Origin: Thermocoleostomius sinensis A174
Lineage (GTDB): Bacteria; Cyanobacteriota; Cyanobacteriia; Elainellales; Elainellaceae
Direction: 5' to 3'
DNA: 64,000 nt
Assembly: GCF_026802175.1 (NCBI RefSeq)
Contig: NZ_CP113797.1
Location: 4,193,026 to 4,257,025, forward strand
Positions within the stretch are counted from its first letter, which is position 1; every line of letters begins with the position of its first letter. Positions 38,486-57,270 of this stretch are shown here, in pieces. The notes under the pieces are model-generated. The model searched no databases and had not been told where the DNA came from. It was given only the letters and a program-made list of their open reading frames with translations. The translations under genes were made by a program, and so were the position numbers.

Positions 38486-38572
38486 GGCTAACGTTTCGGG
38501 TCAGCGGTTGCCGGGGTCTTCGTAACCCACCCAAGCGGCTTCGGTCAATCCGCTGCACCCGAATTGTTATAT
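38486..38572 (-). other. attC-like recombination site (best example)
   Basis: GGCTAAC at the left and GTTATAT at the right bound 87 bases. The arms TTCGGGT-CAGCGG and CCGCTG-C-ACCCGAA are exact inverses apart from one extrahelical C, and the outer AAC/GTT boxes also pair. The stop of the DUF4041 gene lies inside the right box, as is normal for a cassette. Confidence 0.85.
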
Positions 38573-39958
38573 CGCTGTTGCTACTTTGTCTTGGCGTTCT
38601 CTAGCTAGAGTTTTTCGATAGTCTGTTGCTTCAGCAATTTTGGTAAAGGTCACTTCAGATTTACAAATCTTGAGTTCTTGATCTATTTCTCGCACAACTC
38701 TAACTATCTCGTCTAATGAAACTCGAAAGAACTCCTTCCTCTCATTCTCCTTGTTCATTCTTCTGCTATTGAAACGCTTGTGTAAACGAGCTTCGAGTTC
38801 TGGAGCATTCTCGCAAAAGATCATAGCGTGAACATCAAATGGAAAGGGAACAGAAGCATCACCTAGTTCTTTAACTCGATCCATTGGTTCAAGGCGGCGC
38901 GTCATACCAATTTTATAAACATCTTCGCCAAACGAGCCAATGTTTGAAATGATGTAGACGTGTCCAGATTTTGTCAATTGAGCTTGAGATATAGCCCTTT
39001 CTTTATTTGCTTCAGCCTCTGCGAGTCGCTTCTGCAACTCCTCGATTTGACTAAGAAGTTTCTCTTGAGCCTTACCTGTAGCCGACTCTACGTCTCTACG
39101 AGCTTTTTCCAAAGCTTCCTGATAACGACGTTCTTCCTTCTCAGCATCTTGTCGAGCTTTTTCAAGTTCGCGTAATGCTTTCTCTTCTTCGCGCATTTGT
39201 TCGCGAATAATGCGCTGTTCTTCCTGCTCTTGATATTTTCTTTCTTGGTATTCGTGGGTTAACCAAAGCTCTTGGAGTTTTAAGTCTAAGTAGCGTGAAG
39301 TAATCTCGCAGTGTGTAGTTTGAGAGAGCTTATTTAGATCATCATAAGTCTTTCTGATGCGATTTTCCATTGTCTGAACATTGTTGTATTTAACCTTTAC
39401 AACGGAAGCATCACATTCGCCATTAAAAGCACGAAGAACTAGTTTTAGAAAATTATCAGTCATTTTCTTACCTTCTTTCGCGCTCCCACCAACTGACCAC
39501 TCCGTATGGCAGACAGCAGCTTGCTTATCCTTAATCATCTGCTTTTGTTGAGCGCGAATTTTGTCTAAGCGTTGCTTGTACTCTTCAGCCTCTTGAAAAT
39601 CATATTTGGACTCGTAAAATCCAAAAGCTTCGACAATCTCTTGCTCTTCAAGTCCTTTCAGTTTTGCTCTGAGTACTGAAATCTTAGTAGATAGTTCCTG
39701 CTCCTCTACTTGTGACTGCTTATCGAGTTGCTTAAGCCGATTCGTCAGAACGGTAATTTTCGTGTCTAGTTCTCTTGCAGTATCTTCCCTAGAGATGAGT
39801 CCTCCATACTTCCGATCGGCTTCTTGTAACCGCTTGTCTGCTTCCTTCAACCTCTCCTGAGCTATTGCATAATCATTTTTTCGCTGTTGCAATTGCTTAA
39901 TCACTAAAGCAAGTGCAGTGGCTAACCCGATGGATAAGAGAAATAGTAAGTATGTCAT
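38567..39958 (-). CDS. DUF4041 / T5orf172 (GIY-YIG-like) coiled-coil protein
   Basis: A 463-residue protein: an N-terminal membrane span (YLLFLLSIGLATALALVI), a long coiled coil (about 25-130), a DUF4041-like central region (EIVEAFGFYESKYDF), a second charged coiled coil (about 245-330), and a C-terminal T5orf172/MUG113 GIY-YIG-like nuclease domain (GHVYIISNIGSFGEDVYKIG, RRLEPMDRVKELGDA). This architecture recurs in phage- and mobile-element-associated proteins. It is the first gene next to the broken integrase, where the newest cassette sits in an integron. Confidence 0.82.
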   Translation of the reverse strand: MTYLLFLLSIGLATALALVIKQLQQRKNDYAIAQERLKEADKRLQEADRKYGGLISREDTARELDTKITVLTNRLKQLDKQSQVEEQELSTKISVLRAKLKGLEEQEIVEAFGFYESKYDFQEAEEYKQRLDKIRAQQKQMIKDKQAAVCHTEWSVGGSAKEGKKMTDNFLKLVLRAFNGECDASVVKVKYNNVQTMENRIRKTYDDLNKLSQTTHCEITSRYLDLKLQELWLTHEYQERKYQEQEEQRIIREQMREEEKALRELEKARQDAEKEERRYQEALEKARRDVESATGKAQEKLLSQIEELQKRLAEAEANKERAISQAQLTKSGHVYIISNIGSFGEDVYKIGMTRRLEPMDRVKELGDASVPFPFDVHAMIFCENAPELEARLHKRFNSRRMNKENERKEFFRVSLDEIVRVVREIDQELKICKSEVTFTKIAEATDYRKTLARERQDKVATAI

Positions 39959-40351
39959 GGAAGCAAGCCGAAATCACCTGTTATAGATTGCCCGAATCAG
40001 CACCCATACGTACTAGAAAATCAAACTTTTACTCAACCTTGCACAAATTCATATTAAAAAATACAGATTTGTTAAGCCTTGTCAGGATCTCAAAGCACAG
40101 CCCCAACCAAGAGGTAAAGCGATATAACAATTTATTGTACAGAGTAACTCTACATATCCTTCCATCTGAGGTGAATGAACACACTCCCTGCTGCATATCT
40201 GCCCCAAATAGCTGGATATACAGCAATCCTACTGTATATTTACCTGAACCAAGGTGGATCTACAGCAAAATTCCGTAGATCCGACCAGGTAATCTCAGTA
40301 GAATGCCTATACTATAAAGACATATTTTATACAAAAGTATTACGCTATCCA
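39959..40351. other. integron attI/promoter region between intI and the first cassette
   Basis: This lies between the divergent DUF4041 gene and the intI pseudogene, where attI and the cassette promoter belong. It is AT-rich with several TATAAT-like stretches (for example TATAAC at 40123). I cannot fix the attI core base with confidence. Confidence 0.45.
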
Positions 40352-41445
40352 ATGCTGGAACCTCGTCCTCGAAAGCTACTTGACCAAGTGCGCGATGCCA
40401 TACGAGTCAAGCATTACTCATATAGCACGGAGAAAACTTACGTTTACTGGATTCGTCGCTTCATTCTGTTTCATCACAAACGCCATCCTAACGAGATGGG
40501 CGCACCAGAGGTCACGCAGTTTCTCACCCATTTAGCTGTAACCGAACAGGTCGCAGCCGCCACTCAGAATCAGGCACTCAATGCCATTATTTTCCTTTAT
40601 CGTATCGTCTTGCAACAAGAGCTAGTTGGCATTAACGCCGTACGGGCAAAGACATCGCGCTACCTCCCCACCGTCTTAACGCCAGAGGAAGTGCAGCAAG
40701 TCATCTCCCACCTGTATGGCGTGTACAAGTTGGTGATTCAATTGCTATATGGCAGTGGACTTCGCTTGAGTGAGGGATTGGCATTGCGGGTGAAAGATGT
40801 GGATTTTGCTCAACAGCAGTTGGTGATTCGAGATACCAAAGGCAAAGAGAGCCGAGTCACGATGTTGCCTGCTTGTGTGGTTGCTCCCCTGCAAACGCAT
40901 CTGCAAACGGTGCGACAGTTGCACCATCACGACTTGGAGCGCCGGTTATGGCTCGGTCTACTTGCCCTTTGCCCTGGAGCGGAAGTATCCCCATGCCGAT
41001 CGCTTCAGCAAATCTTCATGGTCAGTAGGCAGGCAAGAGATGTAGCATTTAGCACACAAGTGCTACTGTCATCTACCCGCCTCGCGATGGCATCCCGACC
41101 CAGAAAGCTGCTTGACCAAGTTTGCGATACGATTCGTCTGAAACATTATTCCTATCGAACCGAGCAAAGTTATGTTGGCTGGATTCGCAGGTACAGTCTC
41201 TTCCATATCTGCATGAAAGTGGGGTACAGAAAACGCTAAAGCAAGCGGTTCGTGTAGCGGGCATTGCGAAGCGAGTTGGGTGCCATACCTTTCGCCATAG
41301 TTTTGCCACCCACTTGCTGGAAGATGGCTACGACATCCGCACGGTACAAGAGTTGCTGGGGCACAAAGATGTGAAGACCACGATGATTTATACCCACGTG
41401 TTGAATCGAGGTGGCAGGGGTGTTTGCAGTCCCCTGGATGCGTGA
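40352..41445 (+). pseudogene. intI: integron integrase (IntI-type tyrosine recombinase), broken
   Basis: The N-terminal part (from ATG 40352: [37 protein letters not shown] with the first catalytic Arg) is intact to about 40940. A frameshift follows; the continuation [20 protein letters not shown] is in another frame. About 40 residues of a second N-terminus ([20 protein letters not shown]) are then inserted from about 41087, and the C-terminus resumes in a third frame ([48 protein letters not shown]) with HxxR, His and Tyr present. GGRGV.SPLD is typical of IntI. It looks like a recombination of two integrase copies and should be inactive. Confidence 0.88.
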
Positions 41446-43013: not shown

Positions 43014-43874
43014 TCACTGTGTGTCATAGTGTGCCATCATCCGGATCAGTTCTTGCTTAAACCGATCGCGCACCGCCTCTGGAGATACAATCACACACTC
43101 GCTTCCATAACGCCGTACCTCTCGAAAAAACCAAAAGATATTTGTTACCCGTCGCACCACTCGCCGAACATGCACAGGGTCAGTTAACCATTCATTGATT
43201 TCGTCCATTGCGGTTTTGGTATGGTAGGCAAAAGCCAATCTATGCAATAAATGCATCTCAACTAAGATCGAATCTAATTGCGATCGCCACTGTCCTTTCA
43301 CAGGCGACACCGAAGCATCCGAAATTCGATCCCAACGCAGACACCAATTATGGGCTAACGCTGGTAAGTCATAATTCCCGTCTGTTTCCTCGCACCAGCA
43401 GTGAAGGTATTGCCGTTGTTCATAGTGAGTTATCTCTGCATAATAAATTGTAAAGTTCCAAATCCGTTCTGCTGCATCTTGATAGGCTAGCTGAAATGGT
43501 TGTTGCTGCCGAATATAGCGATCGATTTCAATTTGCCAAACAACCGTAGGTTTCGTAACAAATTGTTCAATTTCTTGACGTAATGGCAATGTAATTTCAC
43601 TGCGTTCTAGTAGTAGATGAGCTAAAACGAGGGCATCTTCTATTTGACCAGCATCAATTAATAGAGTCCTCGCTTTATTAAGTGTATTGATGCGATCGCG
43701 ACTCCAATTATTGTTTAAGGAAACTAACAGTTGGCGACGGGCGATCGCTTTAATCAACCGCGAAATATTAGGGTCATCTCCCCATTTCATACCAAGTTCG
43801 AGGGCGATTGCCTCTAGCTGGGCTTTGTCGCTCTCTTCCAGGGAAAGGGTGATCGATCGTCCTTTGCGCGTCAC
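43014..43874 (-). CDS. WYL-domain regulator of the CRISPR-Cas locus
   Basis: A 286-residue protein. Its N-terminus (MTRKGRSITLSLEESDKAQL) looks like a ribbon-helix-helix-type DNA-binding segment. The C-terminal half carries WYL-type features (FQLAYQDAAERIWNFTIYYA, QYLHCWCEE). It is divergent from cas3' with an 82-base gap. In Synechocystis the WYL protein Sll7009, next to the type I-D CRISPR1 locus, lowers crRNA accumulation; position and type suggest the same role here. The ligand is unknown. Confidence 0.82.
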   Translation of the reverse strand: MTRKGRSITLSLEESDKAQLEAIALELGMKWGDDPNISRLIKAIARRQLLVSLNNNWSRDRINTLNKARTLLIDAGQIEDALVLAHLLLERSEITLPLRQEIEQFVTKPTVVWQIEIDRYIRQQQPFQLAYQDAAERIWNFTIYYAEITHYEQRQYLHCWCEETDGNYDLPALAHNWCLRWDRISDASVSPVKGQWRSQLDSILVEMHLLHRLAFAYHTKTAMDEINEWLTDPVHVRRVVRRVTNIFWFFREVRRYGSECVIVSPEAVRDRFKQELIRMMAHYDTQ

Positions 43875-43887
43875 GGGATCTCCTAGA

Positions 43888-43971
43888 GTGTCCGTATACT
43901 TTTTTCCGTATAACTATTGCCTGTCTCTATTTTGCGTGCCATATTGGAGCAAAGCAATGAGTTACGGACAC
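43888..43971. promoter_or_regulatory. candidate operator: repeated TCCGTA boxes between the WYL gene and cas3'
   Basis: GTGTCCGTA (43888-43896) is the exact inverse of TACGGACAC (43963-43971), which overlaps the cas3' start. A further direct copy TTCCGTATA lies at 43904-43912, sharing CCGTATA with the first. A regulator controlling both divergent genes would bind here. Confidence 0.55.
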
Positions 43972-46116
43972 AATTTCAGGACACAGACCAAGACCATGTC
44001 TGATTACAGCATTACTCTTAAACCTGTTTACTCTCGGACAGTTCCAATCCCGATTGGAATCAATTTGCCCGATGAATGGTCGCTTTCATGGCACCAATCA
44101 GAAACCTTCAATGCCTTGAGCGATCCGCAGATTGACGTTGTATTTAACACAGCCATGACTGGGGATGGCAAAAGCCTGGCGGCATACTTGCAATCGATGA
44201 CTGGAAAAACATACACACTGGCAATGTATCCCACCAACGAATTAGCTAGGGATCAGGAACGGCAAGTACAAGATTACAAAGGCAAATTTCAGCCGAAGTA
44301 TGACCCGCAAATTTTTCGCCTCACTGGTGCAACGCTAGAAGATTTTGTCGAAACGAATCAGCTATCTTCAAAGCAGCAAGGAATTGTTAATCTGACAGAT
44401 AATTCAGAAATTTTACTAACCAACCCGGATATCTTTCATTACATCCATCAATTTCGATATTTGAGGAGTGATTCTAACAATACTAGGTGGGGTGATAACG
44501 CAGATAAAGTATTTCGCAAAGTGGATGATCTTTACAAATTGTTTGTTTTTGATGAATTTCATGTTTTCTCTTCACCTCAAATTGCCAGTGTTTTCAATGC
44601 AATGCTGTTGATGAAACATACAGGGTACAAAGGAAAGTTCCTATTTCTATCTGCAACCCCTAGTGAATTGCTTCAGGGCTTCTTATCGCGATCGGGTTTT
44701 AAACACCGAGAAATCAATCCTGTCACAGAAGGTGCATATTGCTTTACACAGGCAGACGAAAAGTGCTGGCGACAGATTAGCCAGCCCATTGCACTGGTAT
44801 TTCCCAATGATTTACAGCCAAATGCCAGATCTGGATACGACTGGATTGTTGAAAATGCTGAATCTATCATTCTCAAGTTTTTTCTAGATTATCCAGATAG
44901 TAAAGGGGCAATTATTCTCAATTCAATTGCAGCCGTTTACAAGCTTCTAGGTAAACTGCAACCACTGTTCAAACAGCACAATCTAACTGTTTTACCAAAT
45001 ACCAGTCTGACCGGTGAAAGTGAACGGGCACGATCGATCATAGATGCCGATCTGTTAATTGGTACCTCTACAATTGATGTTGGGGTAGATTTCAAGATTA
45101 ACTTTCTGGTGTTTGAAGCATCTAGTGCAGCAAACTTCATTCAACGCTTCGGACGATTGGGCAGGCATCAAGGCTTTCCAATCTATCGAGCCTATGCACT
45201 AATTCCAAACTTTCTGATTTCAAGATTATTTGAAGATAAGAACGAAAAAGCTGCATCATTAGCTGATGGAGATGAGTACGATCGGGTTTTCTTTAATAAT
45301 GCCATTCGAGATTCCTGGTTATTTGTGAATCAGTTTGAAGGATATTCAAAACGTTGGGGATCTGTGCAGTCGTTTTACGTTTGGAACGAATTGCGTAAGA
45401 AACAAATGCAAGCAGCTTATCCAGACGCAGCAAAAAATTTTGAAACAGATATTTTCAACGCGCTTCAAGTCAGTGTAAGGTCTCGTTATGGAGAAATCAA
45501 TCGATGTTTGGAAGCCAAACAACATAAGATAATTGACGAAGCAAGAAGTTTTCGGGGTAGTAGTCAGTTAGATTGTGCAATTTACGATACAACAAATTCA
45601 AATGAACCAGAGCGGGACAGGTTCAAGACCTACAATTTACCAGGGCTATTGAGTAACTTTATTTTTGAAGTAATGGATAATGATGAGTTTCGGTTAAAGG
45701 CTGAAAAAGCTGGAATATCTTTTACTAGACGCTATAAAGATGCACTGTGCTGCTTGCAGTTGCGAGATTATCGAGAGATGCGTGAGAACTGGCACTTTTA
45801 CCATGCAGGAAATGTGAGCGAATTAGCGAGAATCGGTAAGGTGCAAATCCTCAGAGGTCTGGAAGTGACAACAGGTGAAAATGCAATCAGTAACGCTTTA
45901 TGTCAACGTGGAATCGTTTGTTATATCTCCGATCGCCGCCGGGATGAACTACGCGCCAAGTTAGGTTTACCAATGCAGTTTCAAGCATATGGATTGAGCG
46001 ATCGTCCAGATGACCGCGACCCACCCTACACGATCGCTTTTGGTCAGTCTGCTCTTTTGCTGGAAACTCTCACCTGGCATTGGAAACCGAAGGAGGATGA
46101 AGGATGGATTTGTTGA
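43957..46116 (+). CDS. cas3: type I-D CRISPR helicase Cas3'
   Basis: The 719-residue (from ATG 43957, GGAG 8 bases upstream) superfamily 2 helicase unwinds target DNA after Cascade binding. Motifs: Walker A TAMTGDGKS, DEFH box FDEFHVF, LFLSATP, and motif VI QRFGRLGRHQGF. It lacks an HD nuclease, as type I-D Cas3 proteins do; the HD domain is on Cas10d. It is first in the operon, divergent from the WYL gene. A gap of 367 bases, containing an antisense repeat-like sequence, separates it from the next gene. Confidence 0.95.
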   Translation: MSYGHNFRTQTKTMSDYSITLKPVYSRTVPIPIGINLPDEWSLSWHQSETFNALSDPQIDVVFNTAMTGDGKSLAAYLQSMTGKTYTLAMYPTNELARDQERQVQDYKGKFQPKYDPQIFRLTGATLEDFVETNQLSSKQQGIVNLTDNSEILLTNPDIFHYIHQFRYLRSDSNNTRWGDNADKVFRKVDDLYKLFVFDEFHVFSSPQIASVFNAMLLMKHTGYKGKFLFLSATPSELLQGFLSRSGFKHREINPVTEGAYCFTQADEKCWRQISQPIALVFPNDLQPNARSGYDWIVENAESIILKFFLDYPDSKGAIILNSIAAVYKLLGKLQPLFKQHNLTVLPNTSLTGESERARSIIDADLLIGTSTIDVGVDFKINFLVFEASSAANFIQRFGRLGRHQGFPIYRAYALIPNFLISRLFEDKNEKAASLADGDEYDRVFFNNAIRDSWLFVNQFEGYSKRWGSVQSFYVWNELRKKQMQAAYPDAAKNFETDIFNALQVSVRSRYGEINRCLEAKQHKIIDEARSFRGSSQLDCAIYDTTNSNEPERDRFKTYNLPGLLSNFIFEVMDNDEFRLKAEKAGISFTRRYKDALCCLQLRDYREMRENWHFYHAGNVSELARIGKVQILRGLEVTTGENAISNALCQRGIVCYISDRRRDELRAKLGLPMQFQAYGLSDRPDDRDPPYTIAFGQSALLLETLTWHWKPKEDEGWIC

Positions 46117-46211
46117 GGAAACCGCTCCTTCCAAGACCTTAGCATTCAAGAATACCAACCCCTTGAGATGGAGGAAACTAAGGGATGATAACTAGCTTAA
46201 CTAACAAAGAT

Positions 46212-46307
46212 TGGAGAAGGGGCTTTGCCCGACATCAGAAGGCAACAGTGTTTCAATACCTGAAAGGCTTTGTGAAAGTGCAGCACTGCACTGCATCCCC
46301 TTCTCCA
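46212..46307 (-). repeat. CRISPR-repeat look-alike inside an 11-bp inverted repeat, within the cas operon
   Basis: Positions 46250-46286, read on the minus strand, align without gaps to the 37-base array repeat at 26 of 37 bases; the 3' 23 bases match at 20 positions (CAAAGCCTTTCAGG, TATTGAAAC). It is enclosed by a perfect inverted repeat, TGGAGAAGGGG (46212-46222) and CCCCTTCTCCA (46297-46307). The array itself is on the plus strand, so this copy is antisense to the operon. A full second repeat is not found. Confidence 0.75.
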
Positions 46308-46483
46308 TATATTAAGGTTACATCAGATTGGGCTTCCCGCACTCATGAAGGTAACAGTGACTAAATCTATCATAAGGCTACAGTAACTCTTGAAAATCTA
46401 GATTGGAGTTGCCAAGATGGTGAAAATACTCACCAAGGGATTTTCAATAGCTTCTTCAGCTAAGTGACAGCGATTTGGCAAAA

Positions 46484-46954
46484 ATGCCTCCTAGCCTCTC
46501 CACTGCTTTGATTGATTGGTTACAGCGTGAGAGATTGAAGCCTGCTCAACCCATTGGCAACTCACAACGCAAAACTGAAACCGAGCAACTCGCGCTTACT
46601 CTCGTCAATACAAGCTCAAACAAGAAGTCTAATTCAAGCAAAACAAGAAAAAGCCGCTCTCACATCAGACTTACTCAGCTATTTGCCGCAGGTATCACTA
46701 AATCAGGAATGCCTATTCGAGTTAAGTTGAAACAAGAACTAGCCAAGAAGTGCGGACATAAGTACGTAACAAAAGGATTGAGTTTTTCCCAAAAAGGTAC
46801 TGTGCTTTACCAGGATGAAGAGTTTGATAAGCCCAGTCCTCTGGCAAGGAGGGTAAACAGTAGTGCTGCTAATGGCTGGGAGTATGTTGAAGTGCTGAAA
46901 AACGGGCAATGGATTTGCTTGGACGAGTTACGTAAAATTTGGAGAACAATCTAA
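46484..46954 (+). CDS. small RAMA-domain-like protein inserted in the cas operon
   Basis: A 156-residue basic protein (TTG 46475 would add three residues). The N-terminal 70 residues are Ser/Lys-rich. The C-terminal 90 (SHIRLTQLFAAGITKSGMPI, SQKGTVLYQDEEFDKPSPLA, NGWEYVEVLKNGQWICLDEL) follow the pattern of the RAMA domain found in restriction and methylase systems, where it is thought to recognise DNA or modified bases. It is coupled to cas10d by TAATG. It is not one of the standard type I-D genes. Confidence 0.72.
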   Translation: MPPSLSTALIDWLQRERLKPAQPIGNSQRKTETEQLALTLVNTSSNKKSNSSKTRKSRSHIRLTQLFAAGITKSGMPIRVKLKQELAKKCGHKYVTKGLSFSQKGTVLYQDEEFDKPSPLARRVNSSAANGWEYVEVLKNGQWICLDELRKIWRTI

Positions 46955-49900
46955 TGGACGAAGAACAACTGGCTCTACCAATTGACAATGATTTGCCAAT
47001 TGTAGATTTTGATGCAGGGCGAGAAGATAAAGAAGCCAAAGAACAAAAGAAACTGCTCACGATTTCTCTGTTTAAAGAAGCCATTTGTGAAGCAGAAGGG
47101 AATGAGGACGATCGTTTACTAATTGACTTTACTGACTATGTTTTGCCAAAGTTAATGCGACAACTGGCAGGATCAACGGCAAAGGGAGGACAATTTTTTG
47201 AACGGTTAGATGCTAGAGGCAAGGTTAAACGACGTGATAATGCAGGTGATCAATCGCTTCCGGCGCATTTGCTTAACGGTTTTCTGCCAACTTACCGAAT
47301 TGCAAAACGGCTACAACAACCAGATGTAGCCAGAAATCAGGTGAAAGCCTATTGTGAGGCATTGCAGTTGCGGATTTATGTTGCTGCATATATTCTGCAT
47401 GATTACGAGAAGTTTCCAGATTACCAGCAGTGGTTAATCAAGCAGGACATTGAAGGTAAATGGAAACATCGAGACTGGGTTGATCAAGCTCCTGGTAAAC
47501 AGGATGCTCCTGATTTGGGACGAGAGTACATTGCCCAGAAAATCATTGCTCTGGGACTGGATCAATTTTTGGGTGCATCATGTCGTGAATTCATTGATGA
47601 CATTATTTGGATTAGCAGCAATGCTGGAGATAAAAACGATGCCGATTTAGGTCTAATTACACGTGGATTAAAGCCATTAGAAGACGATCGCATGGATGGT
47701 AGAATTCGCAACGTTCTAGTGAACTTAGTGAAGCTGTCCGATCGGTTTGCTTCAATTATTAAACATCCTCAAGATATTACAAAAAATAGCCTGACGGATT
47801 TGCTCAATAGCTTGAGTAATGCGGGGCAGTTTAAGTTTACCTATCATGCACTGTCTGATAATCGCGGTGTTTTAACCAACATCATCAACAATGCTTTAAT
47901 GGATTTGCACCCCAAAGAATTTTATACGCAATTGCTATATTTACCGGACGGTGTGGTTTATCTCGCAACAGCCAATGCACCCCCGATCGCTGTTCAACAA
48001 ATCTCCGAGCAAGTCATCAATAAAATAAAAACGCTTTGTGGCGATCGGCTCAAGCAACGGCAAATTGGATTTGGTCGAGATGGTAAAGGTTTAAAGTTTG
48101 CTGACTATTACTGGCTCTTTTTTAATATTGCCCAACTTATGGATGTGGCAAAGCTTGCTGCCTGCCGCATTATTCCTTCAACCAAAAACTCTTCAGCCGC
48201 TAAACGGAGTGCCAGCTTAACCAACTTTCAAGCTGACGGTGAATTACCTAATTATCTCACTGTCGAATTCAAAGATGACTATCGAATCGATCGCCTGGCT
48301 GAATTTGGGGATACGCTTTGTCGGGGTATTTGGCGAGGATGGTGCGATCGTTTTGATGCGTGGCAAAAACAGCAGCCCAAAGCAGAACGAAAGACGCTAC
48401 CTGAGTTAAATCTCACCCAAAAACTCGCAGAGCATTTAGGGCTAACTCACGAAATTCCTGCAATTAGGTCAATTCAATCTCTCAAGAAAACAGGTGGTGT
48501 ACCACTCGATTGGTATTATCTTGCTGCTAAATATATCCAGAGCAATTCTACGCTTGATGATCAGCAAGTTCGAGAGGTAATGACTGCGATGGTCAGTTTT
48601 GCTGCGGATGCTGTGGAAGCGATTGTGCAAGAGTTCACATTACCCGATGGTTGGGATGACTTACGCACTTACGTGCAGCAAATTGTTTCCTTACCTACTG
48701 GAACCATTGTTCCACCCCAAACTGATCCGTTCCTGGTTGAACTGAGTCGCTATCAAGCTGCAAAAGTGACGGGGCGCGGACGCGAAAATGTCTGTGCCAT
48801 GTCTAGCTCGTCCTACACGGTGACAGAGCAAATGGAATCTGCTACATTGTTTACGCCCCAGGTTTATAGCAATCGTCAGATCCTCTTTAATGCTCAGGCT
48901 GCCAAACGTCAGATTTGCGCGATCTGGTCAGTGGAAATTATGCTGCGCCAGATTTTGATGAATCAGACGAACGCAACAGGAGGAGACTTTGAAGGACGCA
49001 AATATCGCTATCTCTATCTTTATCCGGCCTACTTCTTTACACCAGAAACAAACACTTTTATTCAAAAAGTCTATTCCTGGATTCGGCGCACTCGATTTGA
49101 TGCAGATATTCGTAAACACCTGGTTACTGATCAACAGGTTGCTCAACTTAACCTTGAGAATTACCAGCAAGTAGACTCGCTTCTGATTCAAGCAGAATCC
49201 GATCGGGATCAAACCTTTAAGCTCAACTATCCTAATGAGCCGATGACCTTCTTTTTTATGGCGCTACCGCCAGGAAGAGATGCTACAGATACCGAATCTT
49301 GGGTGATGCCTGCTTGGTTGGCCTTTGCCCTGCCATTGGTATTAGATGTCAAGGTAGTGGCTTCTGAATCGCCTGTACCACCCTTTATTAGTGGGGCTGA
49401 TTTTGAACACACAACCGTCTTAGATGGAGAACATCAGGCGATCACCACGCTGGTTAAAAAAGAGCAATATCGCCTAGATGCAATCCTTCCTCGCACCACA
49501 GAAATCTTTTCCCCCCTGAATGCTCTGAGTGCAGCTTACTGCATTCATCTAGAAGTGAATCGCAAAAAGGATGGTGATCCAGATTGGGGCAAGTTAGCGG
49601 CTCTGGCACGTGATCTAGAAACCAGTCCGCTTTATGTTTTCCACTACCTGACCAAGCTTGTTCGAAAACTGGATTGGGATTCTGCTCCCATTTCCAAAAT
49701 TAAGCTATATCTCGACTTTTATCATTGTTTTGATCCCCAAGGAGACGATGTGAACCAATTACGCGAACTAACTCGGCTCTATCGCCGTTTCTACCGTGCT
49801 AAAAGCCAATATGCCAAACCTAACGCCGTTCTAAAACCGATCGATGAAGCGGCCGATGTAATTCTCAAAGTTGATAAAGCGCTGGTTCCAGATGATCAGG

Positions 49901-50247
49901 CATTGACTGATGTAGTCGCAGCCCGTATTTCTAAATTGATGACGAATGTACGGCGTAGAACGGCTGAGGGCAAACCAACATTGGCATTTGTAGATGGAAA
50001 ATGGAAACCTGCGTTGACCGTTGAAGAAGAACGACAGGCAATTTATGAGTTTGCACAATTCTTTGTGAAAGATCTGTTTCGGGAAACGTTTAAGAGCGAT
50101 CGAGCACGTCTTGCTGGAATGCAGCTTAATCTGATTCGGGATACCTGTGATTATCTCTATCGCCTTACCGATGACGAAGAGCGCAAAGCTCAGAATCAAC
50201 CTGAACCAGAAGACATTCCTGAACTGGAAACTGAAGACGCGGCTTGA
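46954..50247 (+). CDS. cas10d: type I-D large subunit Cas10d (Csc3) with HD nuclease
   Basis: A 1097-residue Cascade large subunit of type I-D. An N-terminal HD nuclease motif is seen in AAYILHDYEKFPDYQQW (about residue 145). The rest is the Cas10-like body, without a clear GGDD cyclase motif, as expected for Cas10d. ATG 46954 is chosen because GGAGAAC lies 7 bases upstream and it overlaps the preceding stop (TAATG); the frame also contains a TTG at 46939. Cas10d binds the PAM and with Cas3' degrades the target. An internal start near the 3' end can give Cas11d. Confidence 0.95.
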   Translation: MDEEQLALPIDNDLPIVDFDAGREDKEAKEQKKLLTISLFKEAICEAEGNEDDRLLIDFTDYVLPKLMRQLAGSTAKGGQFFERLDARGKVKRRDNAGDQSLPAHLLNGFLPTYRIAKRLQQPDVARNQVKAYCEALQLRIYVAAYILHDYEKFPDYQQWLIKQDIEGKWKHRDWVDQAPGKQDAPDLGREYIAQKIIALGLDQFLGASCREFIDDIIWISSNAGDKNDADLGLITRGLKPLEDDRMDGRIRNVLVNLVKLSDRFASIIKHPQDITKNSLTDLLNSLSNAGQFKFTYHALSDNRGVLTNIINNALMDLHPKEFYTQLLYLPDGVVYLATANAPPIAVQQISEQVINKIKTLCGDRLKQRQIGFGRDGKGLKFADYYWLFFNIAQLMDVAKLAACRIIPSTKNSSAAKRSASLTNFQADGELPNYLTVEFKDDYRIDRLAEFGDTLCRGIWRGWCDRFDAWQKQQPKAERKTLPELNLTQKLAEHLGLTHEIPAIRSIQSLKKTGGVPLDWYYLAAKYIQSNSTLDDQQVREVMTAMVSFAADAVEAIVQEFTLPDGWDDLRTYVQQIVSLPTGTIVPPQTDPFLVELSRYQAAKVTGRGRENVCAMSSSSYTVTEQMESATLFTPQVYSNRQILFNAQAAKRQICAIWSVEIMLRQILMNQTNATGGDFEGRKYRYLYLYPAYFFTPETNTFIQKVYSWIRRTRFDADIRKHLVTDQQVAQLNLENYQQVDSLLIQAESDRDQTFKLNYPNEPMTFFFMALPPGRDATDTESWVMPAWLAFALPLVLDVKVVASESPVPPFISGADFEHTTVLDGEHQAITTLVKKEQYRLDAILPRTTEIFSPLNALSAAYCIHLEVNRKKDGDPDWGKLAALARDLETSPLYVFHYLTKLVRKLDWDSAPISKIKLYLDFYHCFDPQGDDVNQLRELTRLYRRFYRAKSQYAKPNAVLKPIDEAADVILKVDKALVPDDQALTDVVAARISKLMTNVRRRTAEGKPTLAFVDGKWKPALTVEEERQAIYEFAQFFVKDLFRETFKSDRARLAGMQLNLIRDTCDYLYRLTDDEERKAQNQPEPEDIPELETEDAA
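49750..50247 (+). CDS. cas11d: internal ORF within cas10d: small subunit Cas11d
   Basis: In type I-D systems the small subunit is made by separate translation of the 3' end of cas10d. Here an in-frame GTG at 49750 (codon 933 of cas10d) has a perfect AAGGAG (49739-49744) 5 bases upstream. The product would be 165 residues (VNQLRELTRLYRRFYRAK ..., Val read as Met), a helical basic protein of suitable size. The internal Shine-Dalgarno is seen directly; the function is inferred from the characterised Synechocystis system. Confidence 0.78.
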   Translation: MNQLRELTRLYRRFYRAKSQYAKPNAVLKPIDEAADVILKVDKALVPDDQALTDVVAARISKLMTNVRRRTAEGKPTLAFVDGKWKPALTVEEERQAIYEFAQFFVKDLFRETFKSDRARLAGMQLNLIRDTCDYLYRLTDDEERKAQNQPEPEDIPELETEDAA

Positions 50248-50288: not shown

Positions 50289-51314
50289 ATGGCTTTCTTA
50301 ACAACGGTTGATGCGAAGCATTTCCATACCGAAATTCCTGCAAAACCAATGGGCAAGTATGTCCACTTCATCACGATTCGTGTCACAGAATCTTACCCAC
50401 TATTTCAAACCGATGGTGAGTTGAATAAGGCACGAGTTCGGGCTGGTGTTGATCAGAAAAATAATGAACCTATCAGCCGTCTAGCCATGTTCAAGCGGAA
50501 GCAATCAACCCCTGAACGATTAACAGGACGCGAATTGCTGCGAAACTATCAAATTGGTGATTGGGAGAAGTGCGACTATAACGTTGATTTCAGTAAAACG
50601 ACACCCGATTGCGTTTTGTACGGGTTTGCGATCGGCGATGCAGGGTCTGAAAAATCCAAAGTTGTTGTTGATACCGCCTATTCCATCACGCCCTTTGACG
50701 ATTCCCATCTCAATTTCACGCTGAACGCACCCTTTGAAAATGGCACAATGAGCCGCAATGGAGAAGTTACCAGTCGAATTAACAGTCAGGACCACATTCT
50801 GCCTCAAGTCTTCTTTCCCAGTATTGTGACGCTCAAAGATCCAACAGAAGCAGGCTTTTTGTATGTATTCAACAACATTTTGAGAACTCGCCATTATGGG
50901 GCGCAAACTACTCGTACAGGTCGTGTCCGCAATGAACTCATTGGGATTATTTTTGCCGATGGCGAGATCGTCAGCAACCTGCGCTGGACTCAAAAGATTT
51001 ACGACTTGTTGATGGAAAAAGGTCAAATTAAGTTGCCTGATCCTTTGAACGAAGATCAGGTTCGTGAAGCAGCTGAAGTCGCTATTCAGCAACTCATGGC
51101 TGAAGAATACATTCCTCACACTGACTTTATCGGTACTGCTCTGGACTCGCTGCTCACAGAAGTAAAAACTATCACAGGTGACGAAATGCAACTAAGAGCA
51201 ATGTTGACTCAAGCCAATGCTGAATCTACGGCTTACGCTAACAAACACATCTTCAAATCTGCTGAAAAAGCCAAAAAGAACAATAGAAAAACAGCTACAG
51301 CCACAGCAGAGTAA
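50289..51314 (+). CDS. csc2: type I-D backbone subunit Cas7d (Csc2)
   Basis: Csc2 forms the helical crRNA-binding backbone of the type I-D effector. The 341-residue protein begins FLTTVDAKHFHTEIPAKPMG and has VHFITIRVTESYPLF (RRM-like strand), FKRKQSTPERLTGRELLRNY, and a Lys-rich C-terminus. ATG 50289 follows GGAGAAAC. It starts 41 bases after cas10d and 5 bases separate it from csc1, so all are one transcript. Confidence 0.94.
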   Translation: MAFLTTVDAKHFHTEIPAKPMGKYVHFITIRVTESYPLFQTDGELNKARVRAGVDQKNNEPISRLAMFKRKQSTPERLTGRELLRNYQIGDWEKCDYNVDFSKTTPDCVLYGFAIGDAGSEKSKVVVDTAYSITPFDDSHLNFTLNAPFENGTMSRNGEVTSRINSQDHILPQVFFPSIVTLKDPTEAGFLYVFNNILRTRHYGAQTTRTGRVRNELIGIIFADGEIVSNLRWTQKIYDLLMEKGQIKLPDPLNEDQVREAAEVAIQQLMAEEYIPHTDFIGTALDSLLTEVKTITGDEMQLRAMLTQANAESTAYANKHIFKSAEKAKKNNRKTATATAE

Positions 51315-51319
51315 CCGCC

Positions 51320-52054
51320 ATGACTATCATTTATCGTTGTACGTTAGAGTTGCATGACTCGATGTACTTTGCCACCCGTGAGATTGGGCGATTGTACGAA
51401 ACAGAACCAATTTTGCATAACTATGGGCTGTGTTATGCACTGGGACTGGTGGATAGCGATCGTCATTCCACTACTGTTTCTGAAGAACATAGCTACCGTT
51501 ACTTCTGCCCTGAGCAAATTCCCAGGTACGAAGCGCACCTCACGCCGCTCAACCAGCAGGGAATTTATGTCACTCCTGCACGGGCTGTTTCCCATACAAC
51601 CGTTCTCAACACCTGGAAGTACGCTAACAACAATTACCACGTTGAGATGGAAAAGACTCAGAAAAATATTCCTAGCTTTGGTCGAGCCAAAGAAATTGCA
51701 CCAGAAAGCCAATTTGAATGTTTCATCCTCTCTGACAAAGTATTAAGTCAGAAGAAGGAAGAGAAATATCAAATTCCTCGATGGGTAAGACTTGGTAAAT
51801 GGGCAAGCAAGGCAGCAGTCAAACTCAGTGATCCCTTAGACTTTGAGTTAAAGACAGATGATTTTATGTGTTCTCATCCACTTAATCCATTAGATGTGAT
51901 GTTTGCTCACCGAATCGTCAGTTATGACACTCTAAATATGCCACCTGTGAGCCTGATCCGAAACGTGCGGTTTTTACGGGGTAAACATTATCGAGTCAAG
52001 GAAGGAAAAGAGACGTTTTGCCTTCCGGCTGATGTTCAATATCGATTTGGATAG
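51320..52054 (+). CDS. csc1: type I-D subunit Cas5d (Csc1)
   Basis: Csc1 caps the 5' handle of the crRNA in the type I-D complex (Cas5 equivalent). The 244 residues include an RRM-like start (IYRCTLELHDSMYFATREIG), YALGLVDSDRH, and the C-terminal PPVSLIRNVRFLRGKHYRV. It follows csc2 after 5 bases. A decayed gene fragment of about 300 bases separates it from cas6. Confidence 0.93.
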   Translation: MTIIYRCTLELHDSMYFATREIGRLYETEPILHNYGLCYALGLVDSDRHSTTVSEEHSYRYFCPEQIPRYEAHLTPLNQQGIYVTPARAVSHTTVLNTWKYANNNYHVEMEKTQKNIPSFGRAKEIAPESQFECFILSDKVLSQKKEEKYQIPRWVRLGKWASKAAVKLSDPLDFELKTDDFMCSHPLNPLDVMFAHRIVSYDTLNMPPVSLIRNVRFLRGKHYRVKEGKETFCLPADVQYRFG

Positions 52055-52104: not shown

Positions 52105-52375
52105 CCCGATCGCCCATTAGAACATCATGCCTTTTCTAATCCACAGCAATCTTACACCTTCAGCAAGATCTTTGAGCTGCAAATCGAAACAGACGATCTA
52201 GTAGCTGAATTCGGCTACACACTCCGGAGAACGCGACTCAACTTGCCGCAATATCCCAGAGAACTCGATCGCCTCGAAGTTTACGATCGCGCATTGAAGA
52301 AGTTTTACCCTACGTAAGTCTGACCAGTGAAACCTCTCGTCGCGAAGCGTTATTTCTCAGGTTGTTCTGGAGTTG
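52105..52375 (+). pseudogene. remnant of a conserved cyanobacterial gene between csc1 and cas6
   Basis: Without any start codon, one frame reads SYTFSKIFELQIETDDLVAE ... GYTLRRTRLNLPQYPRELDR and stops at 52317; the next frame continues IEEVLPYVSLTSETSRREAL. Together these match a conserved N-terminus found in many cyanobacterial hypothetical proteins (TDDLVAEFGY, NLPQ, EVLPYVSLTSE), so this is a frameshifted fragment of one. The rest of that gene is missing. Confidence 0.65.
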
Positions 52376-52464
52376 TTGCATTATCCTGCTCACTTCTGCC
52401 AACAGTACATATCATTGGCATTTCCGATCTTCATCATCAATTTTTCATCTTATCAATACAACCC

Positions 52465-53280
52465 ATGCCCCACAGCCTCATTCTCAACCTGCAACCCCGA
52501 TCGTCCATTCCTTCTGGTTATCTCACCGGCAAGCATCTCCATGCCCTCTTTCTAACCTTAGTCAGTTCAGTCGATCGGAACTTAGGAGATTACTTGCACG
52601 AGCAGAAAACCGAAAAAGCCTTCACCCTCAGCCCGCTCCAGATCCGCGATCGTGCCTCAAGAGGGCATTTGTTGCAGTGGGAGCATCACCGCTCCATTGC
52701 AGCCGGAACCTCCTGCTGGTGGCGGATTTCGTTATTAGACGATACCCTATTTGCTCATCTGACTCCGCTTTGGCTCAACCTCAACCCAGCCCGCGCTTGG
52801 CATTTGGGGCCCGCCGACTTACAGATTACGAGTGTGCTTGGAACCGCCCAATCGGCTCAGCCGTGGGCAAACTTTCAGTCCTATGCTCAACTGTACGAGC
52901 AAGCCTCCGACGAGGCGCGACAAATTACGCTGACCTTGGCGACACCTGCCACGTTTCGGCAAGGCAAATATGACTCTGCGTTGCCGACAAGAGAATGTAT
53001 TTTTAACAGTTTGCTGCACCGCTGGCATCGCTATAGCAACATCCCTTTCTCTGAAACCCTAGTTGAGTGTCTTTTTCCTAGTTTTTTTGATATTCGCACT
53101 GAACTTGTCAATCATCCTGAAGGCAAGTGGGCGGGTTGTGTAGGGACGATCGGCTATCGCATTCTAGGCAATGTCGAAGCGGCAACCGTTCGGCAAATTA
53201 ACACGTTGGCAGACTTTGCGGTGTATAGCGGCATCGGGCGCAAAACCCCAATGGGAATGGGAATGGTAAGGAGACTGTAA
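52465..53280 (+). CDS. cas6: CRISPR RNA-processing endoribonuclease Cas6
   Basis: Cas6 cuts the pre-crRNA within each repeat to leave the 8-base 5' handle. From ATG 52465 the 271-residue protein has the RRM start (SLILNLQPRSSIPSGYLTGK, with HLHALFL) and the diagnostic C-terminal Gly-rich loop (LADFAVYSGIGRKTPMGMGM). The frame is open back to 52327 through the pseudogene remnant; the family N-terminus supports 52465. Its stop overlaps the cas4 start (TAATG). Confidence 0.93.
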   Translation: MPHSLILNLQPRSSIPSGYLTGKHLHALFLTLVSSVDRNLGDYLHEQKTEKAFTLSPLQIRDRASRGHLLQWEHHRSIAAGTSCWWRISLLDDTLFAHLTPLWLNLNPARAWHLGPADLQITSVLGTAQSAQPWANFQSYAQLYEQASDEARQITLTLATPATFRQGKYDSALPTRECIFNSLLHRWHRYSNIPFSETLVECLFPSFFDIRTELVNHPEGKWAGCVGTIGYRILGNVEAATVRQINTLADFAVYSGIGRKTPMGMGMVRRL

Positions 53281-53864
53281 TGGATGATTATATTCCGATC
53301 GCAGCGCTCAACCAGTATGCCTATTGCCCCCATCGGTGCTGGCGCATGTTTTGTTTGGGCGGATTTATCGACAATCAGTACACGATTGAAGGAACGAGTT
53401 TGCACGATCGCGTTCATACAGTCGGAGAAAACCAACGGGAAGAAATCTGGCAAATTCGAGCTATATGGCTAAAGTCAGATCAATATCATTTGATTGGGAA
53501 AGCAGATTTAATTGAATCGGGTAATGGGCGCTGGTATCCTGTGGAATATAAGCGGGGACATGTTGGTGAATTTGAAAATGATGCCTTACAGGTTTGTGCT
53601 CAGGCACTATGTCTAGAAGCGATGACTGGAAAACCCGTAACTCTTGGCTATCTATACTATGCTCAATCGCACCAGCGCCAACCCGTCGAAATTTCAACCG
53701 AGTTGCGGCAGAAGACAATCGCCATCATTGAGAAAGTTCGCCATCTCCTTGAGACTGGCGACATGCCACCAGCTATCTATTCTTCGCGCTGTCAGGGATG
53801 CAGCCTTTATGAGCAATGTTTACCTAAGGCGGCAGACAAGGTAAAACGATATCGAGAAGCGTAG
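53280..53864 (+). CDS. cas4: adaptation nuclease Cas4
   Basis: Cas4 trims new spacer precursors and helps select PAMs. The 194-residue RecB-like nuclease has an N-terminal Cys cluster (YAYCPHRCWRMFC), LHDRVHTVGE, GKADLIESG (metal Asp), YPVEYKRG (the E.K core), and three C-terminal cysteines (SSRCQGCSLYEQC) completing the Fe-S site. Its start is fused to the cas6 stop. Confidence 0.95.
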   Translation: MDDYIPIAALNQYAYCPHRCWRMFCLGGFIDNQYTIEGTSLHDRVHTVGENQREEIWQIRAIWLKSDQYHLIGKADLIESGNGRWYPVEYKRGHVGEFENDALQVCAQALCLEAMTGKPVTLGYLYYAQSHQRQPVEISTELRQKTIAIIEKVRHLLETGDMPPAIYSSRCQGCSLYEQCLPKAADKVKRYREA

Positions 53865-53911
53865 GTAGGGAACCGAAGTATTCATTCACTCATTCACTTA
53901 TCCATACAAAT

Positions 53912-54916
53912 ATGGGAACTCTTTATATCACACAAGATGATAGCTATCTTGGTAAAACAGATGAACGCTTGACGGTGCGCGCAAATAAACAAACGCTGCT
54001 CGATGTACCGTTGATTAAAGTTGATGGTGTGGTGGTGTTTGGGCGATCGACGGTTTCCCCCGCTGTCGTCATTGAGTTGCTAGAACGCAATATTGCGCTG
54101 AGTTTTCTGACTCACACAGGGCGCTATTTGGGACGACTAGAACCAGAGTTAACGAAGAATATTTTTGTGCGAGCGGCCCAGTGGAAGGCGATCGCCCCTT
54201 CCGAACCTGCCCTGCATTTAGTCCGAGGATTTATTCGAGGAAAGCTGAAGAACTATCGCAATGCACTGCTGCGAGGACTACGAGAATTTCCTGAGCTTTC
54301 ATTACAGCCAGCCCTGACTCGGTTGGAACAAGCAATCGCTCCTATTGACACCACTCACACGATCGATTCGTTACGCGGATTGGAGGGAAGCGGCAGTGCT
54401 GCCTATTTCGGTAGTTTTGATGCCCTAATTCGTGCTGAAGGGTTTCAGTTTACCCATCGCAATCGTCGTCCTCCTACTGATCCGGTCAATGCATTGCTCA
54501 GTTTAGGCTATGCGCTGTTGCGGCATGATGTGCAAAGTGCGGTGAATTTGGTAGGCTTTGATCCATATTTGGGCTATCTGCATACACAACGGTATGGACG
54601 CCCTTCTCTAGCGTTGGATTTGATGGAGGAGTTTCGCCCGATCGTGGTTGATGCGGTGGTGCTTAGCGCCATTAACCGTCGAGTGCTTTCTCCTGAAAAT
54701 TTTGAGACAGAACCGTTAAGTCATGCGGTTTCACTGACCTTGGAAGGGTTGCGATCGTTTTTGCGGCTATATGAACAGAAGAAACAATCGAAGTTTAAAC
54801 ACCCTGTTTTACAAACTCAATGTACTTATCAGGAGGCGTTTGAAATACAAGCGCGGTTACTTGCGAAGTACTTGATGGGTGAAACTGAAAAGTATCCGCC
54901 GTTGGTGTTGAAGTAG
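53912..54916 (+). CDS. cas1: CRISPR integrase Cas1
   Basis: Cas1, with Cas2, inserts new spacers at the leader end. The 334 residues carry the metal ligands in LRGLEGSGSAAYFGSFD (Glu), GYLHTQRYGRPSLALDLMEE (His) and the following EEFRPIVVD (acidic). The N-terminal beta domain starts LYITQDDSYLGKTDERL. It follows cas4 after 47 bases and precedes cas2. Confidence 0.97.
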   Translation: MGTLYITQDDSYLGKTDERLTVRANKQTLLDVPLIKVDGVVVFGRSTVSPAVVIELLERNIALSFLTHTGRYLGRLEPELTKNIFVRAAQWKAIAPSEPALHLVRGFIRGKLKNYRNALLRGLREFPELSLQPALTRLEQAIAPIDTTHTIDSLRGLEGSGSAAYFGSFDALIRAEGFQFTHRNRRPPTDPVNALLSLGYALLRHDVQSAVNLVGFDPYLGYLHTQRYGRPSLALDLMEEFRPIVVDAVVLSAINRRVLSPENFETEPLSHAVSLTLEGLRSFLRLYEQKKQSKFKHPVLQTQCTYQEAFEIQARLLAKYLMGETEKYPPLVLK

Positions 54917-55002
54917 GGCATCGGGAATCGAAAGTCGGGGGGTGGAAGAGCAGGGATAGTGTTTTGAGTTTTGTCAGTTCTGCTGTTGGCTATCAGGTTC
55001 AT

Positions 55003-55275
55003 ATGTATCTCGTCATCTCCTACGACATTCCAGACGACAAACGCCGATCGAAGATTCACAAGGTGCTAAAATCCTACGGACAATGGATGCAGTTGAGTGT
55101 TTTTGAATGCAACCTCAGCGAAACTCAGTATGCTAAGTTACGATCGCGTCTAAGCAAGTTGATCAAGCCGGAGCAAGACAGCATTCGGTTTTATTTTCTC
55201 TGTAGTTGCTGTCAAGGAAAGGTCGAGCGCATTGGCGGAGAGGTTTTACGAGATGAGACCATCTTTTTTGTGTAG
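55003..55275 (+). CDS. cas2: CRISPR adaptation protein Cas2
   Basis: The 90-residue ferredoxin-like subunit starts at ATG 55003 (MYLVISYDIPDDKRRSKIHK); the frame is open to 54964, but the Cas2 family begins here. The conserved Asp (YDIPDD), the LSVFECNLSE strand and FYFLCSCC are present. It is the last cas gene, immediately before the leader. Confidence 0.95.
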   Translation: MYLVISYDIPDDKRRSKIHKVLKSYGQWMQLSVFECNLSETQYAKLRSRLSKLIKPEQDSIRFYFLCSCCQGKVERIGGEVLRDETIFFV

Positions 55276-55571: not shown

Positions 55572-57270
55572 GCGCTAATCATCACCAAACCCTTCCAGGG
55601 ATTGAAACTTTCTCCACTGGAGTCATGGCGGCTGTCGCTGTTGCGCTAATCATCACCAAACCCTTCCAGGGATTGAAACACATTTGGGTTGGATGCCAGT
55701 GGTAAGCGGGTCGGCGCTAATCATCACCAAACCCTTCCAGGGATTGAAACTGTTAACACCACGACCAATGTGATTACGTTAACGCGCTAATCATCACCAA
55801 ACCCTTCCAGGGATTGAAACGTCGGATGGCGGGTGCTGAAGGAGCCGACGATCCGGGGCGCTAATCATCACCAAACCCTTCCAGGGATTGAAACGCATTC
55901 CGGCCACACGTGTGCTTTTCCGGCCACGAAGCGCTAATCATCACCAAACCCTTCCAGGGATTGAAACTATAAGCACTTGCCCCAAGATGCCCCTATTGAT
56001 GGCGCTAATCATCACCAAACCCTTCCAGGGATTGAAACCAGATCCTTCCTTCCAACTCGAATCGATTACAGCGCGCTAATCATCACCAAACCCTTCCAGG
56101 GATTGAAACTCTCTGCCCGGATCAAAAATGCGGGTCATGGCTTGGCGCTAATCATCACCAAACCCTTCCAGGGATTGAAACGCTTCCCGGCTTGGGTGGT
56201 AAGGTGGCACGCAAAGCGCTAATCATCACCAAACCCTTCCAGGGATTGAAACTACAGCAGCACGTTTATCTACACTACGTCGCTATTGCGCTAATCATCA
56301 CCAAACCCTTCCAGGGATTGAAACAGCCCCGATCGCCATTGGTGCTGGCATTGCCTTGGCGCTAATCATCACCAAACCCTTCCAGGGATTGAAACTTTAT
56401 CCGCGTGTATTCCAGTAATTCTTAATTCCTTGCGCTAATCATCACCAAACCCTTCCAGGGATTGAAACACCCTCAGCATCACTGAGGAGAAAGACCGTAA
56501 TCGCGCTAATCATCACCAAACCCTTCCAGGGATTGAAACTTGTACCAACACCCACAGAGCGGCCGGTGGCAATGCGCTAATCATCACCAAACCCTTCCAG
56601 GGATTGAAACCTTTTCCGGCCACGAATGTGATCGAAAAAGCACATATGCGCTAATCATCACCAAACCCTTCCAGGGATTGAAACAACAGCAGTTTGATTT
56701 ATAGAACCCTCGAAAATAGGGCGCTAATCATCACCAAACCCTTCCAGGGATTGAAACCAGCAGATTAGTGTAACTCAGGTATTTGGTTGGTTGGCGCTAA
56801 TCATCACCAAACCCTTCCAGGGATTGAAACATCTAAAGCGGCGGCAAAAGCAGTGATATCTGATCCGGCGCTAATCATCACCAAACCCTTCCAGGGATTG
56901 AAACTAACTTATTCCGGGGCATCTGAACGGGGATTCGGGGCGCTAATCATCACCAAACCCTTCCAGGGATTGAAACCCAAATTAATCAATGGAGATTAAA
57001 CGAATGCCTAAGGCGCTAATCATCACCAAACCCTTCCAGGGATTGAAACTTTATCTGGGGGCTGACTTTGCCACACTGGGCTTGAAAGGCGCTAATCATC
57101 ACCAAACCCTTCCAGGGATTGAAACGGATGAGAGCAAGTGGATGCTGGGCTGCCAATCGCTGCGCTAATCATCACCAAACCCTTCCAGGGATTGAAACTA
57201 AGCGAAAGCTCCTCTGAGCCTTTCACCCGTTACGCGCTAATCATCACCAAACCCTTCCAAACATCGTAAC
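55572..57270 (+). CRISPR. type I-D CRISPR array, 24 repeats and 23 spacers
   Basis: The 37-base repeat begins GCGCTAATCATCACC, contains a short CCCT/AGGG hairpin, and ends GGGATTGAAAC; the GAAAC end is typical. Repeats 1-23 appear identical. Repeat 24 (57234-57270) keeps the first 26 bases, then degenerates to AACATCGTAAC, marking the distal end. Spacers are 33-39 bases, mostly 34-36. Spacers 5 (55895-55930) and 15 (56611-56647) share a 16-base sequence. Transcription runs away from cas2. Confidence 0.99.

Follow-up and report, generated by a model that had tools for sequence, protein, structure and literature searches.

Cas-regulating RNAs, known as CreR, were reportedly described by Liu et al. 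in Cell Host Microbe in 2023, while Shmakov et al. (NAR, 2023) are said to have described standalone repeats and mini-arrays whose spacers are partly complementary to the promoters of cas or cargo genes. CreR have been reported for types I-B, I-E and V-A, according to the accessible part of PMC13131331. The creTA of the Acinetobacter type I-F system is found in the gap between cas3 and csy1, and its 20-nt guide is paired at 17 positions and mismatched at positions 6, 11 and 18 (available text of PMC10097628). In type I-D the PAM is given as GTN for Synechocystis and GTH for Microcystis; each sixth base flips out and may be mismatched (available sections of the review PMC10212523). The one regulator of type I-D named in those sections is a protein, Sll7009.

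A repeat-like element in a type I-D locus

The window (the whole stretch of DNA that was analysed, 64,000 nucleotides from Thermocoleostomius sinensis A174) holds a type I-D locus in the order WYL gene, cas3', RAMA-like open reading frame (ORF), cas10d, csc2, csc1, cas6, cas4, cas1, cas2 and array (Table 1). The WYL-domain gene is likely to encode a protein regulator of the locus. The listed cas3' ORF begins within the WYL ORF, and the true start of cas3' is probably later than listed. The RAMA-like ORF scores 27.8 bits against Pfam RAMA, below the curated cut-off of 35.2. Its frame (window 46446-46500) extends upstream past the listed TTG start and resembles relatives there (LLQLSDSDLAKMPP); this extension is preceded by a stop codon, relatives such as L034 begin there with an ATG, and the first few residues of the window protein seem to have been lost. 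Near the CRISPR locus lie a PD-Lambda-1 match with DUF4041 and T5orf172 domains (window 38567-39958, minus strand, E 2.5e-178) and, beside the locus, a tyrosine-recombinase-type integrase (40175-41239); these may form part of a defence island.

Table 1. Positions of the genes, RNA parts, target sites and predicted promoters in the window
Feature	Position	Strand	Remarks
WYL-domain gene	43014-43874	-	PADLOC WYL, E 3.8e-12
cas3' (cas3d)	43687-46116	+	Protein match begins at residue 107
Closing-helix arm TGGAGAAGGGG, 3' end of RNA	46212-46222	+	Exact complement of 46297-46307
Predicted guide RNA (CreR-like), about 94 nt	46213-46306	-	Covariance model; closing helix end to end
Guide (spacer-like) part ACTGTTGCCTTCTGAT	46234-46249	-	Directly after ATTGAAAC; 14/16 match to T1
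Would-be 5' handle ATTGAAAC	46250-46257	-	Last 8 bases of mimic
CRISPR-repeat mimic GTGCTGCACTTTCACAAAGCCTTTCAGGTATTGAAAC	46250-46286	-	26/37 to array repeat, 20/23 at 3' end
Closing-helix arm CCCCTTCTCCA, 5' end of RNA	46297-46307	+	Exact complement of 46212-46222
Predicted -10 box (TAATAT) of guide RNA	46309-46314	-	AT-rich box
Weaker second site T2	46347-46361	-	PAM GTC (46359-46361) and ACTGTTACCTTC (46347-46358)
Target T1	46369-46387	-	PAM GTT (46385-46387) and protospacer ACTGTAGCCTTATGAT (46369-46384)
Predicted promoter of RAMA-like/cas10d operon, TTGAAA-17-CAAGAT	46390-46418	+	Analogy with relatives
RAMA-like ORF	46475-46954	+	Pfam RAMA; first gene behind T1
cas10d (csc3)	46939-50247	+	Effector large subunit
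csc2 and csc1	50289-52054	+	
cas6, cas4, cas1, cas2	52327-55275	+	
CRISPR array	55572-57270	+	24 repeats of 37 bases, last degenerate

The original prediction had placed in the gap between cas3' and the RAMA-like ORF a 37-base, minus-strand mimic of the array repeat, bracketed by perfect 11-bp arms. A gapless scan of both strands found its coordinates and both match counts to be correct. With the array excluded, the mimic is the best site in the window on both counts, the runners-up reaching 24/37 (13/23 at the 3' end) and 16/23. The two arms are exactly complementary, and the element does lie between the two genes named, with cas10d beyond. When positions 46100-46500 were searched against Rfam at E values up to 1, the sole result was a chance hit to MIR164, whose 18.1 bits fall well short of the cut-off of 64.

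A second array of about 18 repeats lies elsewhere in the genome (L134:7258-8537; C1, about 2369257-2370537). The last 22 bases of the mimic match the repeat of this second array at 20/22 positions, compared with 19/22 for the local repeat. No ORF longer than 449 aa was found in the 16 kb around the second array, which may be an orphan array.

The spacer-like part, its candidate targets and the predicted promoters

Behind the mimic, the spacer-like part matches a site in the same gap, T1, which sits 135 bp from the guide toward cas10d and is flanked by a PAM. Guide and T1 agree at 14 of 16 positions, with mismatches at positions 6 and 12 only, where type I effectors do not require a base pair; pairing then stops, positions 17 to 30 matching in just 1 of 14. 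T1 is the one place in the 5.8-Mb genome where the motif GTNACTGTNGCCTTNTG stands, and the best score in 200 dinucleotide shuffles of the gap was 10/14, compared with 14/14 observed. T2 starts 26 bp nearer the guide. It matches at 11 of the first 12 positions, with a mismatch at position 7 and further ones at 13 and beyond, and over 16 positions it is borderline in the window (p about 0.056). The footprint of a type I effector exceeds 25 bp, so T1 and T2 are probably not occupied simultaneously.

The predicted operon promoter begins 2 bp beyond the PAM of T1. In the window it is not the best-scoring sigma-70-like site and is not listed by the promoter scan, which gave 1 site against 0.9 expected from shuffles; no terminator was found. 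Across 18 loci of the window's class (class A, defined below), the best sigma-70-like site near T1 starts 1-3 bp past the PAM in nine, as a raw count, and four of these nine carry a perfect TTGACA. An AT-rich box just before the closing helix is conserved in class A, which suggests that it marks the guide RNA's own promoter. T2 would then lie between two predicted promoters, that of the guide and that of the operon.

A proposed model of self-repression

The element is very probably a guide RNA of the CreR/CreA type that directs the type I-D Cascade to repress the cas10d operon. This reading rests on sequence, conservation, the PAM, the register of the match, the periodicity of mismatches, matched changes of guide and target, and paired changes in the RNA; from these we infer transcription, Cas6 processing, loading, repression, induction and the positions of the promoters. 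A minus-strand RNA of about 94 nt (46306 to 46213) would be transcribed toward cas3'. Cas6 would recognise the repeat-like part and leave the handle ATTGAAAC, and the processed RNA would be loaded into the I-D Cascade. The spacer-like part would then pair with T1 behind its GTT PAM. T1 abuts a predicted -35 box, and this promoter would serve the RAMA-like gene, cas10d and the downstream genes. Because pairing ends after 16 bases, the bound complex would be expected to block RNA polymerase rather than to license cutting, and the effector would thereby repress its own synthesis. Repression would lift once competing crRNAs from the array displace the guide, or once the effector is put out of action by an anti-CRISPR. 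T2, being 26 bp nearer the guide's own promoter, may add self-repression of the guide.

The original prediction of a repeat-like RNA through which Cas6 or Cascade may regulate or guard the operon thus gains support from the PAM-flanked target and from guide/target covariation. It had also proposed a search for complementarity to the cas promoters, and T1, beside the predicted operon promoter, is such a site. Judged by sequence, the decisive part is the spacer-like stretch after the repeat, and the element is not solely a repeat decoy.

Conservation in other type I-D loci

The comparison covered 80 named cas10d loci, further relatives and eight plasmid records. The scan for mimics used the last 23 bases of the repeat; a full 37-base profile had blurred the degenerate mimics. 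In the loci counted, 52 from cyanobacterial type I-D systems, the cas3'-cas10d gap contains a mimic, always on the minus strand. Two classes can be told apart. Class A, to which the window belongs, combines a single mimic with a conserved guide and a tail resembling GGGCAAAGCCC. Class B is found in loci whose cas10d is more distant; these mostly carry a pair of mimics separated by about 60-110 nt, and they have several unlike guides. One gap (L104:778-936) holds three successive mimics rather than two. In the window (region 46090-46212) the end of cas3' stands 133 bp from the first base of the guide; in most class A loci inspected this distance is 45-46 bp, which puts the end of the RNA beside the cas3' stop.

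A first target score required a GTN PAM, ignored positions 6 and 12 and was set at a threshold of 11/14. Targets that pass this score lie 40 to 260 bp from the guide; class A has them in 17 of its 21 loci and class B in 28 of its 31, whereas shuffled gaps would give 0.03 and 0.055 loci. Below the threshold were L033, L037, L044 and L057 in class A and L076, L090 and L093 in class B. The test was repeated without bias, with all 16 positions weighted equally, no PAM demanded and a threshold of 11/16, and 47 of the 52 loci reached the threshold in their own gap. The conservation of the element, which the original prediction had named as a check, is thus borne out by the mimic in 52 loci and a comparable target in 47 of them. 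Although no PAM was demanded, GTT directly precedes the target in 27 of the 47 loci, GTC in 17 and another triplet in 3. Mismatches concentrate at position 6 (30) and position 12 (34), followed by positions 16 (14), 10 (13) and 11 (9), with 0 to 5 at each of the others. The review cited above, in its available sections, counts flipped bases from position one; the free positions here are 6 and 12.

As a control, guides were scored against the gaps of loci with unlike guides. Since 252 of these 2102 swapped combinations (12%) also reach 11, the unbiased test is not perfectly specific. The mean score is 12.96 in register; sliding the guide off the handle by 2 bases in either direction reduces it to about 11.8, and shifts of 4 bases or more to about 10-11. 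The register therefore begins at the handle. A blind scan looked for a handle-like octamer with a GTN target near the end of cas3', or upstream of cas10d where cas3' was not found. It gave a score of at least 12/14 in 46 of 100 regions (L022 and L115 being one record) against 1 of 920 shuffles, the latter made from the 92 regions with a cas3' stop. The blind scan added Picosynechococcus PCC 7117 (L115), Anabaena sp. 90 (L113), Dolichospermum UHCC 0315A (L117) and L098. It found no element in Synechocystis 6803 and PCC 7002, where the gap is 13 bp in both, in Pseudanabaena galeata (annotated gap of 17 bp) or in Gloeothece (42 bp).

Neither mimic nor target was found in many type I-D loci with a wide gap, among them a close relative of the window, Phormidium tenue (L056:6202-6919; cas10d 88% identical). 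There the end of cas3' matches, the guide element and the RAMA-like gene were not found, and by eye DUF433- and DUF5615-like frames come straight after cas3', so that this locus forms a natural contrast to the window. On the Dolichospermum UHCC 0315A plasmid, the guide TGTAGTAAAGAAGTAA matches a GTC-flanked target at 16/16 positions, 6 and 12 included, and is nearer to self-targeting than the other guides.

Of 17 class A loci, 12 have a significant (p<0.05) second site at T2-like spacing. Class B has at least two sites in 10 of 31 loci, five of which have tandem sites 26-27 bp apart.

Genes between the target and cas10d

The genes that the target promoter could serve were searched by tblastn in the gaps of the 21 class A and 31 class B loci, and by Pfam in ten examples. 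Class A gaps hold RAMA-like homologues (19/21), DUF433 (16) and DUF5615 (14), and class B gaps hold YhcG (20/31), MntA and HepT (14 each), DUF433 (13) and DUF5615 (5). Toxin-antitoxin-type genes (DUF433, DUF5615, YhcG, MntA or HepT) occur, at least one per gap, in 16 of the 21 class A gaps and in 26 of the 31 in class B, and this frequency is what speaks for a guard of the CreTA/CrePA kind. On such a reading the guide would mainly keep a toxin of the target operon silent, losing or inhibiting Cascade would stop or kill the cell, and repression of cas would be secondary. This account is rather unlikely. The window has the RAMA-like ORF alone between T1 and cas10d, with no toxin-antitoxin-type gene, and in L069, which has the target and cas10d, the search detected no cargo between them. 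A toxin-antitoxin reading was abandoned for the window itself, where those genes are absent. Together, L069 and the window favour cas autorepression as the common function suggested by these sequences, with toxin control added in many lineages.

Joint variation of guide and target

Guide and target change together. Across 18 class A loci, which give 17 distinct pairs, variation in the guide falls at positions 1 (A/T), 4 (G/A/T), 5 (T/G) and 9 (C/T), and the target has the same base at each, giving 16 matched changes, not all of them independent because related loci share changes. The guide is invariant at positions 2, 3, 7 and 8, and all guide changes at 1-5 and 7-9 are mirrored in the target. 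Positions 11, 13, 14 and 16 each add one further matched change. Departures of the target alone occur at positions 10, 11, 13, 14, 15 and 16 (3, 3, 2, 2, 1 and 6 cells), and the one departure of the guide alone is at position 6. Guide and target are not associated at positions 6 and 12 (permutation p 0.84 and 0.94). Examples are L063, where the guide TCTATTGCCTTCTGAT goes with GTC-TCTATAGCCTTATGAT, and L069, where ACTTGTGCTTTTTAAA goes with GTT-ACTTGAGCTTTATAAA; in class B, L102 and L107 obey this rule too, on the opposite strand. Agreement is favoured by the choice of T1 as the site that best fits its own guide, though the sites also align column by column; in L055 the site used as T1 may correspond to T2.

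These data bear on the possibility that the mimic, T1 and T2 are operators, all three bound by one protein such as the WYL regulator, with no RNA guide. A WYL gene is present, and many class A loci carry T1- and T2-type sites as direct repeats spaced by about 25 bp, as operators might be. Yet the mimic has the 3' end of the repeat where the targets have GTT or GTC, mismatches fall at every sixth base, the register begins exactly at the handle and most class B targets lie on the opposite strand, all of which make protein operators very improbable.

Structure of the predicted RNA

A structure of 24 pairs was tested on 20 class A sequences; it comprises a closing helix (the 11-bp arms), a GCAGT/ACTGC hairpin, a second small hairpin and a repeat stem. 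Standard pairs occupy 95.1% of cells, compared with 90.3 in shuffles, and nine pairs change on both sides, compared with 5.1. The covariation score is 0.179, against 0.111 for shuffles and 0.043-0.080 for slid versions; the 19 further pair types do not exceed those of shuffles (19.9). RNAalifold pairs guide positions 7-10 with the tail, one such pair having five double changes. The window RNA folds at -38.6 kcal/mol (z -3.3). The paired changes support the view that the inverted repeat forms the closing helix of an RNA, and this helix may substitute for a second repeat in delimiting or protecting the RNA.

With the window excluded, a covariance model was built from 18 other loci; it matches the window element (46213-46306, minus strand) at 92.2 bits (E 3.3e-21). 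Under strict filters the model gave three strong matches in 386 cyanobacterial genomes, two of them already known from other records, and each has a cas3' match on the surrounding stretch. Six weak matches at 30.9-37.5 bits were found in the same genomes; weak matches within loci fall mostly at arrays.

The element could also be a decoy, an RNA with no target that occupies Cas6 or Cas7 and does nothing more. It shares with Racrs a solitary repeat unit, but Racrs, as the available part of PMC10651486 has them, are virus-encoded and without guide function. The element described here lies in a host cas operon and has a conserved guide with a target in its own locus, and a search of viral contigs for one exact core pattern found it in 0. 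A pure decoy is very improbable and was dropped because the guide has a target. That the element is a dead remnant of an old array or of a repeat insertion is scarcely credible, for although the repeat is degenerate and a few loci (L037, L057) have a mimic without a target, the structure is conserved, guide and target change together and the window fits the relatives' model as closely as given above.

Comparison with known systems

If the proposed reading is correct, it extends RNA-guided self-repression of Cas effectors to type I-D, and this immune system could both limit itself and sense being disabled. The cargo would link CRISPR self-repression to a possible release of toxin. The many guide-target pairs would form a natural data set on the positions that the type I-D effector reads. 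Work in Synechocystis 6803 and PCC 7002 would have missed the element, because by the blind scan neither has one and the gap in both is 13 bp. A literature search at the level of titles and abstract openings found no description of such an element for type I-D; it may nevertheless already have been predicted by Liu et al. or Shmakov et al. (2023).

A further, tentative suggestion is that these RNAs form a distinct class of guide. They might combine one repeat, a covarying 5'/3' closing helix that replaces the second repeat, and two tandem PAM sites, of which T1 would shut the effector operon (in most relatives together with a toxin-antitoxin operon) and T2 the guide promoter. If so, the arrangement would be a homeostat that releases fresh effector and toxin-type cargo upon inhibition of Cascade.

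The comparisons that follow take the known systems as the accessible portions of their sources present them. CrePA resembles the model proposed here in that an effector, directed by a guide, represses an operon in which a protein toxin may be encoded. CreP, however, is described with a KilA-N domain, whereas the relatives studied here have DUF433/DUF5615, YhcG or MntA/HepT, and the window has no such gene under the predicted target promoter. The Acinetobacter CreTA shares the equivalent gap, a nearby PAM-flanked target and a guide with mismatches, there at positions 6, 11 and 18. It differs in having two repeats and a small RNA toxin, while the target promoter here would lead to protein genes and cas10d. 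Class B fits the description that the CRISPR-derived regulatory mini-arrays of Shmakov et al. are said to have.

Like the CreR reported for I-B, I-E and V-A, the element would be a crRNA-like RNA with partial complementarity to a cas promoter and effector-dependent autorepression, the mechanism being proposed here; unlike them it belongs to type I-D, and class A has one repeat with a closing helix and often two tandem targets. The window holds a single mimic, with no second repeat after the spacer-like part, which is compatible with membership of CreR/CreA because a creA may carry one or two repeat-like parts (available text of PMC9458426). A repeat-like sequence lies outside the array in the cas locus, at a place conserved in class A; PAM-flanked partial complementarity is found at T1, near a predicted cas promoter; and complementarity is limited, ending at 16 bases, which would prevent cutting. 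In its sequence the anatomy is that of CreR/CreA: a repeat-like part, then a spacer-like part that is partly complementary, beside a PAM, to a site close to a predicted promoter in the cas locus.
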